A program made the position numbers and the translations under genes. A stretch of DNA of 37,787 nucleotides. Origin: Syntrophomonas sp. GTDB lineage: Bacteria > Bacillota > Syntrophomonadia > Syntrophomonadales > Syntrophomonadaceae. Numbering within the stretch: the first letter of the stretch is position 1; the number at the start of each line of letters is the position of its first letter. Below the pieces are notes generated by a model that was not told the DNA's origin, searched no databases, and worked only from the letters and a program-made list of their open reading frames with translations. Below are positions 23,269 to 37,787 of this stretch, piece by piece. The stretch spans positions 1 through 37,787 of the forward strand of contig NZ_JAQVZX010000014.1 of NCBI RefSeq assembly GCF_028707975.1, read 5' to 3'.

Positions 23269-23348
23269 ACATAATGCAGCTGTCGGGTACCTGCGGACTG
23301 GGTTATAATGAGGTGTTTTCGCCTGGTTTATATGAAGCTTAGGAATTT

Positions 23349-23482
23349 ATAACGAGGTGAAAAATGTCCCCCGCTTCTTTAAGCGGTCGGGTTCCTATTA
23401 ACAAACAGGTGGTGGTTTCTAATCCCCCGCCGCGTTGCAGAGCCGTGTTGAAACTGCTCCTCAGTTTCTTCCAATGCTTAAA
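23349..23482 (-). repeat. structured repeat, copy 1 (about 134 bp)
   Basis: This stretch aligns, as reverse complement, with 32364-32503 and in part with 36041-36093. Shared features are AACGAGGTG at one edge, the hairpin CCGCTTCTTTAAGCGG (23371-23386), a TCTAATCCCCCGC block, GTGTTGAAAC, and CAGTTTCTTCC ending in ATGCTTAA. AACGAGGTG (23351-23359) can pair with CGCCGCGTT (23428-23436) with one mismatch, which closes the fold. It abuts the end of the GGDEF/HD-GYP gene. Confidence 0.75.
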
Positions 23483-33689: not shown

Positions 33690-33786
<97 letters not shown>

Positions 33787-33832: not shown

Positions 33833-33925
33833 GATATTTTTTACAAATGGCAGGACGGGAGTAGCCGAAATAGGAGAGAATAGCCGAGAATAGGTAAGAT
33901 GAAAATGGTTATTGCATTAAAACAT

Positions 33926-34126
33926 CTACACAACCTTTGGCATATCGTCCCAGGTCCTGCCCAACAGCTTGCGACCATTTTTCTTTTTGTTGACCCCGCC
34001 CCACTGCTTAAAGTAGAAGGCCAATCCTTGATAATCACACGAATCCTTTATTGACAGGACCCAGTCCGTTTTAATTTCTCTGGACTTGGGACCGCTTTCC
34101 CCGCCGACTATAGCCCAATGAATACC
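33926..34126 (-). pseudogene. C-terminal fragment of a DUF5131 (phage Gp37/Gp68-like) protein
   Basis: The minus frame contains [40 protein letters not shown] and [20 protein letters not shown]. '[12 protein letters not shown]...DW...FFKQWG...GR.LdGRtWdemP' is the conserved end of the Gp37/Gp68 family. The full protein is over 200 residues, but here the frame before this block (to 34225) has unrelated sequence. It is a phage-derived remnant directly behind tRNA-Ser(GGA), a common integration spot. Confidence 0.8.
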
Positions 34127-34226
34127 ATGGGAGCGGACCCCGGAAGGATACCCTGCCCGGTCATAGCAGGAGATAACTCCAGCTATCTGTTTACTGTAAC
34201 GTTGTGTAAGCAACATCGTTTTCACT

Positions 34227-34263
34227 CCATGCTGTGATATTTTCTGGCATATTTCAGCATGGA
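34227..34263. repeat. 9-bp inverted repeat
   Basis: TCCATGCTG and CAGCATGGA are perfectly complementary across about 20 bases. There is no T-run. It may mark the edge of the phage remnant. Confidence 0.4.
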
Positions 34264-34324
34264 ATATTAAAATCCTTTTTGGTTCCGGCTATGCCGGGTT
34301 AGGAAAAGCTGGATAATAAAGAAC

Positions 34325-34353
34325 TTGATTCTAAAAATATGATAAAATATGAT
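34325..34353 (+). promoter_or_regulatory. promoter upstream of the conserved unknown gene
   Basis: TTGATT (34325-34330) and TATGAT (34348-34353) are 17 bases apart; ATATGATAA occurs twice around the -10. The predicted leader is about 180 bases. Confidence 0.6.
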
Positions 34354-34449
34354 AAGTAATGGTAACGTGGGTAAAATAAAAAACAATGGATAAGCAAGAT
34401 TTACTTAGTGTTTATTAAAATAGATCGGGTTTTCTTCAAAAATAAGCGG

Positions 34450-34500
34450 CTTGATTACTAGCGGGAGTTTTTCGGATAGCATCCGGAAAGGGAAATCAAG
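34450..34500 (+). repeat. nested hairpin in the leader of the conserved unknown gene
   Basis: CTTGATT (34450-34456) pairs with AATCAAG (34494-34500). Inside, TTTTCGGAT and ATCCGGAAA form a second 9-bp stem (one G-T) with an AGC loop. It ends 41 bases before the start codon. Confidence 0.5.
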
Positions 34501-34541
34501 CTGTTATTGCCCCGAAAGATCTCTTTGGATGGGGGTGTAGT

Positions 34542-35720
34542 ATGAGACAACAGCCATTTATAAGTCCACGCTTTGTGGGTAAACGGTTTTCGGAACATTC
34601 CATTCCCCTTGAGTTTCTCAAGGATTTGGCTGTTATCGAAGAAATGATAATAGAGGTAGCTAAATGGCATTTCCGACAGGATCATCCGGATCGAAAACGT
34701 TCTCCGCGTGGTTTTACTGAGGGAATTTCTCTGAACTTGGCTCGAATTAATAGTGGAAGTGCTATTGCTGATATTGTGCTTGTGACAGAAGATCAGGTGC
34801 TTTTCCCGTCTGAAAATCAGATATACTTCCAAAAAGCTCGTAACAGTATTATAAAAGCCATTGGGGCTGCTGAACGAAGCGAATCTGTCCACAGTTATCT
34901 TCCGGAAAATTTATTAGGATACTTTGATCGTTTTGGGCGAAGTTTGAAGAATGAAGAAGCAATTGAGTTTTGTACTCCGGATTTAAATGAAACATCAAAA
35001 CTTAATAAGAATAGTAGACGTCGCCTAATTCTTGCCTCATCTCAAGTCCAAGAACTTACCGAAGAGGTAACAATCAGGGGAATTATACCAGAAGCGGATC
35101 AAGGCAAAAAAACATTCCAAATTATGACGAGGGATGGATCAAAACTTGTTGCACCTATGGAACCTCAGCACCGAGATACTGTTTTAGAAGCTTTCAATGG
35201 CTTTGAAAATGGTTTGCATGTTTTATTGCATGGTATCGGTAAATTCAATCGTTTAGATAAGCTACAAAGCATTGAATTGGTAGAACACATAGGCATATTG
35301 GATCCTAATGATATTGCGGCAAGAATTGAAGAACTCAATGAACTAGGAGATGGTTGGTTCAATGGCTTTGGTTTTGCACTTAATAAAGAAGGATTAGTAT
35401 GGCTACTTAATAAGTTTGATACCTATTATCCCGAAGAACTACTTCTTCCCTATCTCTACCCCACTGCTGAGGGCAAAGTACAAGCAGAATGGACAATCGC
35501 AAACATTGAGATTTCTTTAGAAATAGATATTGAAAATCATCAAGGTGAATGGCAGAGCTTGGAAATGACACAGCTCAATGAGTGTTTCAAAGAACTAAAT
35601 TTGAATAATGAGGAAGACTGGCAGTGGGTTACTGCAAAGATCAGGAGTCTTTTACAGGTCGGGGAAGGTCATCATCGTGATACAAGAACTCTACCATATA
35701 GGCTTCCTTTGGGGAACTAA
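34542..35720 (+). CDS. conserved two-domain protein of unknown function
   Basis: The 392-residue protein begins at an ATG with GGGGGTG upstream. Residues 1-85 (SPRFVGKRFSEHSIPLEFLK, VAKWHFRQDHPDRKRSPRGF, TEGISLNLARINSGSAI) look like a conserved N-terminal domain. The part after about 265 (ELNELGDGWFNGFGFALNKE, LLLPYLYPTAEGKVQAEWTI, SLEIDIENHQGEW) forms a second, tryptophan-rich domain. I recall uncharacterised homologues with the same N- and C-terminal wording in varied bacteria but no assigned function. The last 19 residues overlap a DUF4926 remnant on the other strand and may not be ancestral. It has its own promoter and a structured leader. I do not invent a role. Confidence 0.75.
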   Translation: MRQQPFISPRFVGKRFSEHSIPLEFLKDLAVIEEMIIEVAKWHFRQDHPDRKRSPRGFTEGISLNLARINSGSAIADIVLVTEDQVLFPSENQIYFQKARNSIIKAIGAAERSESVHSYLPENLLGYFDRFGRSLKNEEAIEFCTPDLNETSKLNKNSRRRLILASSQVQELTEEVTIRGIIPEADQGKKTFQIMTRDGSKLVAPMEPQHRDTVLEAFNGFENGLHVLLHGIGKFNRLDKLQSIELVEHIGILDPNDIAARIEELNELGDGWFNGFGFALNKEGLVWLLNKFDTYYPEELLLPYLYPTAEGKVQAEWTIANIEISLEIDIENHQGEWQSLEMTQLNECFKELNLNNEEDWQWVTAKIRSLLQVGEGHHRDTRTLPYRLPLGN

Positions 35721-35811
35721 AAGCCGCAACTATTGTTCCCTCTTCCCCGGTTTTCAGCCCTAATTTGGGAAAATCAACAGTTAATCTAACTGCATCAAAT
35801 TCCTTAAATTT
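35641..35811 (-). pseudogene. DUF4926 protein remnant without a start codon
   Basis: The minus frame reads KFKEFDAVRLTVDFPKLGLK, TGEEGTIVAAFSS, EAYMVEFL and ends at a TGA. 'D.V.L..D.P..gLk.G..GTIV..y....aYeVEF' is the DUF4926 pattern; these small proteins often accompany DUF6883 proteins. No ATG, GTG or TTG lies in frame before the first residues, although AAAGGGGG is there, so the start has probably been lost. Its 3' half is antisense to the end of the gene at 34542. Confidence 0.7.
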
Positions 35812-35878
35812 CCCCCTTTATCAGCTTAACAAAAACCGTTATCATTCTGGGATAATCACTGTCCGATTCATATAGCCA
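35804..35878 (-). pseudogene. C-terminal remnant of the partner gene (DUF6883-like)
   Basis: Just upstream of the DUF4926 remnant, and overlapping it by eight bases, a minus frame ends WLYESDSDYPRMITVFVKLI KGEI. A W-x-Y...YPR-x-x-T-x-V end fits DUF6883 proteins, the usual partner. Only about 24 residues look conserved. The match is weak and rests mainly on the gene pairing. Confidence 0.4.
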
Positions 35879-35930
35879 TCTACTGGAAGATGACGAGCTT
35901 TGGACGGGAGGAATGTAGGGATGGCGGTTA

Positions 35931-36040: not shown

Positions 36041-36093
36041 TTAATAGGACCCCGACCGTTTAAAGAAGCGGAGGACGTTTTTCACTGCGTTAT
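36041..36093 (+). repeat. structured repeat, copy 3 (truncated)
   Basis: The 53 bases match one edge of copies 1 and 2: TTAATAGGACCCCGACC, the hairpin CCGTTTAAAGAAGCGG (36055-36070), GAGGACGTTTTTCAC and GCGTTAT. In the stem, C becomes T opposite G, so pairing is kept. The other half is missing. Confidence 0.7.
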
Positions 36094-36145
36094 ATTGGCT
36101 TGACACTCCAAAGCTGAAACATTGGGATACTCAAGGAAGGGAAAC

Positions 36146-37482: not shown

Positions 37483-37787
37483 ATGGCTAAAATTGAACTT
37501 ATTGCTACCGCTACCTTTGGGCTGGAAGCTATTGTAGCTCGGGAAGTGCGTAAACTGGGTTTTGACGAGGTGAAGGTGGAAAATGCCCGGGTTACCTTCC
37601 CGGCCTCCCGGGCGGATATCTGTCGGGCCAATCTCTGGCTGCGCAGTGCTGACCGGGTGTTGGTCAAGATGGGAGAATTCCCGGCCCGTTCTTTTACTGA
37701 GCTTTTTGATCAGACCCGCGAATTACCCTGGTCTGATTGGCTGCCGGTCAACGCTAACTTCCCGGTGCAGGGAAAGTCCATCCGCTC
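37483..37787 (+). CDS. RlmL-like 23S rRNA methyltransferase, N-terminal part (runs off the right edge)
   Basis: The ATG at 37483 (CGGAG upstream) opens MAKIELIATATFGLEAIVAR, followed by EVRKLGFDEVKVENARVTF and ANLWLRSADRVLVKMGEFPA. This is the ferredoxin-like plus THUMP start of the RlmL/YpsC family, which methylates N2 of a guanine in 23S rRNA. About 101 residues are visible; the SAM-binding domain lies outside the window. It begins 52 bases after the DUF4143 gene, with no terminator seen between them. Confidence 0.88.
   Translation, partial: MAKIELIATATFGLEAIVAREVRKLGFDEVKVENARVTFPASRADICRANLWLRSADRVLVKMGEFPARSFTELFDQTRELPWSDWLPVNANFPVQGKSIR

Follow-up and report, generated by a model that had tools for sequence, protein, structure and literature searches.

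A Syntrophomonas copy of the candidate defence gene PDC-M32A, probably truncated and orphaned by a deletion

PDC-M32 is listed in PADLOC-DB 2.0.0 as a candidate anti-phage system of two genes, PDC-M32A and PDC-M32B (A and B in the following). The PDC families derive from a guilt-by-embedding screen, and most of them await validation (PMC12988326). PDC-M32 has been reported in prophages of Sinorhizobium, in the only paper we found that names it (PMC12429752), and our search of the literature returned no paper in which it had been assayed for phage defence.

Here we describe a member of this family on a contig of Syntrophomonas sp. (NCBI RefSeq assembly GCF_028707975.1, contig NZ_JAQVZX010000014.1). 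The window is the whole stretch of DNA that was analysed, 37,787 nucleotides in length, and the coordinates of the features under discussion are collected in Table 1. An earlier note on this DNA, made from the sequence alone, had taken gene A for a real gene of a conserved family, and this was borne out by the confirmed 392-codon frame and by the alignment of homologues. It had also described the gene as having no known function; the family indeed has no Pfam match, yet it is catalogued as the candidate defence gene PDC-M32A. Both this identity and the partner gene B had been missed. A gene previously regarded as unknown can now be named together with its partner, and the first fold models are provided for both A and B.

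In a PADLOC profile search, gene A matched the PDC-M32A profile PDLC04574 over nearly its full length, with residues 2-371 aligned to profile positions 2-372 of 376 (E 1.4e-152), and a second PDC-M32A profile, PDLC04575, was matched at E 5.9e-139. Judged by these alignments, gene A is a member of the PDC-M32A family, that is, gene A of the two-gene candidate anti-phage system. Neither A nor B had any match in Pfam or NCBIfam, and sequence searches of the PDB with the two proteins returned none. As far as the genomes searched can tell, the family is sparse and patchy in its occurrence: A had matches in 4 of the 399 genomes of the source phylum, one of them strong, and in 13 of 396 genomes of the phylum of L003, and it was found neither in 100 relatives nor in the E. 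coli genomes that were searched. No relatives of A were detected in phages or, by means of A patterns, in viral contigs; patterns of B retrieved nine viral contigs.

Table 1. Positions of the features at and around gene A, numbered from the first letter of the window.
Feature	Position	Strand	Evidence
tRNA-Ser (gga), left border of the variable spot	33690..33784	+	ARAGORN, Rfam tRNA
DUF5131 3' remnant	33938..34129	-	Pfam PF07505, E 1e-22, profile 173-243 of 243
Multi-copy element end, inner side truncated, terminal CCGGCTATGCCGGGTTAGG	34137..34298	-	Copies on three other contigs
Gene A leader, predicted nested hairpin ~34442-34505	34299..34541	+	~95% identical leader in L002
Gene A	34542-35720	+	392-codon open frame, ATG start; real gene
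PDC-M32A-homologous part of gene A, residues 1-375	34542..35668	+	PADLOC PDLC04574, comparison with the L002 protein
Foreign C-terminal tail of gene A, ~17 residues, antisense to DUF4926	35669..35720	+	Tail unmatched in 11 aligned homologues
DUF4926 pseudogene, 3' third missing	35662..35817	-	Pfam PF16277, profile 1-38 of 57, E 5e-11
Possible DUF6883 C-terminal tail	35825..35893	-	Pfam PF21814, E 0.13, sub-threshold; just before DUF4926

The clearest departure of the window from its relatives is the missing partner. PDC-M32B lies directly downstream of A in 18 of the 18 intact comparison loci, which come from other genomes, plasmids and prophages; the intact relatives examined comprised Bacteroidota genomes, plasmids of Rhodococcus, Rhizobium, Limnohabitans and Sinomonas, and viral contigs. 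The two genes overlap by 1-11 nt in 17 of these 18 loci, which suggests translational coupling, and are separated by a 7-nt gap in the remaining one. When PDC-M32B was sought in the window and in the whole genome assembly, it was absent from both; what the window contains is therefore a single PDC-M32 family gene and not a complete two-gene system, and the function of the pair cannot be exercised there. Since the assembly is 88% complete, B could sit on a missing contig.

Judging from gene neighbourhoods, the context of the A-B relatives is defence-like or mobile. The pair stands beside hsdR-M-S genes on contig JAQVBQ010000070.1 (L002), which is labelled Bacteroidales, and it adjoins a NACHT gene and a GmrSD-N gene at two further loci (L058 and L059, respectively). 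A DNA methyltransferase or a type I R gene lies near the pair on two plasmids (L013 and L016), toxin-antitoxin genes are present at another locus with A-B relatives (L012), and on three prophage contigs (L061-L063) the pair adjoins an S24 repressor-type gene, which it follows in the last two. A second decayed copy of PDC-M32 was observed in another genome (G822, locus L026), in which A carries an internal deletion and B ends after 28 residues.

The right-hand end of the A block is a sharp junction. The leader and gene A without its last codons (34299-35668, a block of 1.37 kb) are 97% identical in DNA to L002, and this identity ends at 35668, 11 nt before the ATG of B. The residues that follow in the window are common to none of the 11 aligned homologues, and AlphaFold predicts residues 376-392 to be disordered (pLDDT below 50); the natural C-terminal residues that the window copy has lost are not conserved among homologues. 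The last 19 codons had been described in the earlier note as running antisense to DUF4926, and the overlap is indeed of about that length, with the last ~17 codons being foreign. The absence of the tail from all homologues, for which we had looked because a shared tail would speak for an ancient overlap, and the departure of L002 at 35668 argue that the overlap is recent.

The DUF4926 frame itself is a pseudogene, since it corresponds to the first two thirds of its profile only and has lost its start, as previously proposed: no ATG, GTG or TTG stands at its beginning. No other piece of DUF4926 was found in the genome. A DUF6883 partner had also been claimed to survive as a tail, and a C-terminal match (profile 87-109 of 110) does lie upstream of DUF4926, yet with an E value of 0.13 it falls short of the Pfam cut-off, so that the tail is a possible one.

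At the left-hand end, the A block borders on a repeated element. The genome carries further copies of this element on contigs C19, C143 and C170, which are 91-93% identical to the window copy, and all four diverge right after GGTTAGG, the element ending in CCGGCTATGCCGGGTTAGG. Because the copies diverge at this shared end, the A block starts flush with the end of the element (34298/34299). In the window and at L052, L053 and L054, the end of the element has a terminal hairpin and the start of an open reading frame, whose N-terminal piece of 91 aa gave no Pfam hit above cut-off; in the window the inner side of the element is cut and adjoins the DUF5131 remnant. A separate 54-bp dispersed repeat occurs at 36041-36094, with more copies at 23348-23401 of the window, on contig C175 and in relatives.

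On the tRNA side the flank is conserved with two genus-mates, G001 and G002, as far as about 33875-33899, and the spot between 33785 and 36579 is variable. G002 carries there a TetR gene and an FMN reductase followed by an AAA-DUF4143 gene (L050), and in G001 (L051) an IS21-like pair and a DNA methylase form part of ~10 kb that precede the methyltransferase gene found at 37483 in the window. As the two genus-mates carry quite different genes, we regard the site as a variable integration spot. An identity of 97% to a contig labelled as belonging to another phylum is most naturally read as horizontal transfer, with mis-binning of the L002 contig as a standing alternative to a recent transfer.

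Taking these observations together, we consider it probable that gene A is an orphaned, 3'-truncated copy of PDC-M32A, which is the best explanation as a whole, with its history and mechanism included. The A-B operon would have arrived horizontally in a hot spot beside tRNA-Ser, the repeated element would have split it from its neighbours, and a deletion into a convergent DUF4926-DUF6883 pair would have removed B. To its left the A block abuts the element end; to its right it meets a junction at which the final codons of A, the whole of B and the 3' portion of DUF4926 are missing, and one deletion accounts for the cut tail of A, the missing B and the cut DUF4926 alike. We infer this deletion history from one genome, and no intermediate was found. 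Without B, the defence function has probably been lost at the window locus, and A may persist as a remnant. The odd antisense tail is then supported as the scar of a recent deletion and not as an evolved overlap.

It is also conceivable, although unlikely, that A is useful alone and has been kept as an immunity factor or antitoxin against the B effector of incoming prophages or plasmids. All neighbours of A are broken, whereas its own frame is still open almost as far as the natural end, from which it falls short by a few codons; B is found on prophages and plasmids, and what A has lost at its C-terminus is not conserved. The L002 allele encodes a protein 96.5% identical to that of the window (dN 0.016, dS 0.057), and the resulting dN/dS of about 0.28 would also be expected of a still-functional A, though most of this record predates the loss of B. 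Against such a role, no neutralisation of B is known, the loss of B is recent and A may simply not have decayed yet, and both A and B have decayed in the G822 genome.

The earlier note had favoured a simple insertion of A into a DUF6883/DUF4926 pair, in which case A would always have worked alone here. The sharp edges of the A block and its lower G+C (38.4%, compared with 44.6% in the part of the window that runs up to the tRNA) would agree with this. However, after an insertion the 3' half of DUF4926 would be expected to the left of A, where only the element end and the DUF5131 remnant were found; the left edge is thus formed by the element and not by DUF4926, and relatives of A always carry B. 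We regard an insertion as quite improbable, and a deletion fits the locus better. That the contigs were misjoined at the repeat end and at 35668, the true locus having an intact A-B pair, is highly unlikely: the assembly is fragmented (177 contigs) and contig C19 ends with one of the repeat copies, but the window copy differs by 7-9% from the others and is therefore unique sequence, the right junction involves no repeat, and both flanks are syntenic with genus-mates.

Upstream of A, the promoter candidate TTGATT-17-TATGAT at 34325 matches 9 of 12 positions. It had been called a good promoter, an assessment that was not confirmed, as promoter-like sites in the region are no more frequent than in shuffled sequences (5 seen, 5.0 expected by chance). 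The nested hairpin described in the leader is predicted both in the window and in the near-identical allele of L002, with folding z-scores of -2.1 and -3.8, respectively, but most other family members have no unusually stable leader: when leaders of 203 nt from 16 relatives were folded, most of them were no more stable than shuffled versions. An RNA element common to the whole family was rejected on these grounds. Rfam matched the tRNA only, with two sub-threshold hits that overlap it.

The AlphaFold model of A, built from eight sequences, has a pLDDT of 80.5 and a pTM of 0.60. It divides the protein into about three regions (1-165, an OB-like 172-252 and 256-377), in place of the two conserved domains that had been proposed. 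In the middle region the order of strands fits an OB barrel (beta-1-2-3-alpha-beta-4-5), and the closest structures returned by Foldseek are OB folds from RPA and from aminoacyl-tRNA synthetases, at E about 0.01, with probabilities of up to 1.00 and TM-scores that are local only; the model thus weakly suggests an OB-like domain. The model of B (pLDDT 94.7) has 1s21 and 7kw8 among its best hits by TM-score (0.42, E 0.2-2), a fold that may be called only weakly ADP-ribosyltransferase-like. Profile comparison did not support B as an ADP-ribosyltransferase, the hhalign probability being below 1% for both the KptA and the DarT alignments. Residues R9, S37, Y39 and H89 of B are conserved.

In an intact system, translational coupling would set a fixed A:B ratio, A and B would form a complex in which nucleic acid is sensed or held by the OB-like middle domain of A, and B, which is small and compact, would be the effector or its regulator. 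A coupled complex with A on nucleic acid and B acting is the likeliest scheme, within which the division into a sensor or holder and an actor is a guess. We put forward only as a doubtful proposal that the two PDC-M32 proteins make up a defence or toxin-antitoxin module, with B as a small, divergent ADP-ribosyltransferase-like effector that is held or triggered by an OB-fold A, and that solitary copies of A, the present one included, persist because they confer immunity against B.

Several described systems and families resemble the locus to different degrees. PDC-M63B of PADLOC, which belongs to a different candidate system, shows weak similarity to A in its N-terminal part (E 0.0098 with the window protein and 0.0012 with that of the prophage contig L061), and one locus (L008, 1219-2184) matches both PDC-M63B and PDC-M32A; the similarity to A is distant. 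For B, two of the best structural hits by TM-score are Tpt1/KptA and AvrPphF ORF2 (PDB 1s21), both at 0.42, although compared with ADP-ribosyltransferase-like folds B reaches E values of 0.2 and 2 and has no profile-profile support. The PHROG families phrog_30544 and phrog_31579, both listed as of unknown function, are matched by A of the window (E 3e-93) and by B of L002 (E 1.5e-42), respectively; unlike these, the copy in the window is chromosomal and stands beside remnants, with no recognisable prophage. PDC-M32 itself is matched over the full length of its A profile, whereas B is missing and A ends in 17 foreign residues in place of its own last ones, and the window offers a natural B-less copy of this candidate defence system.
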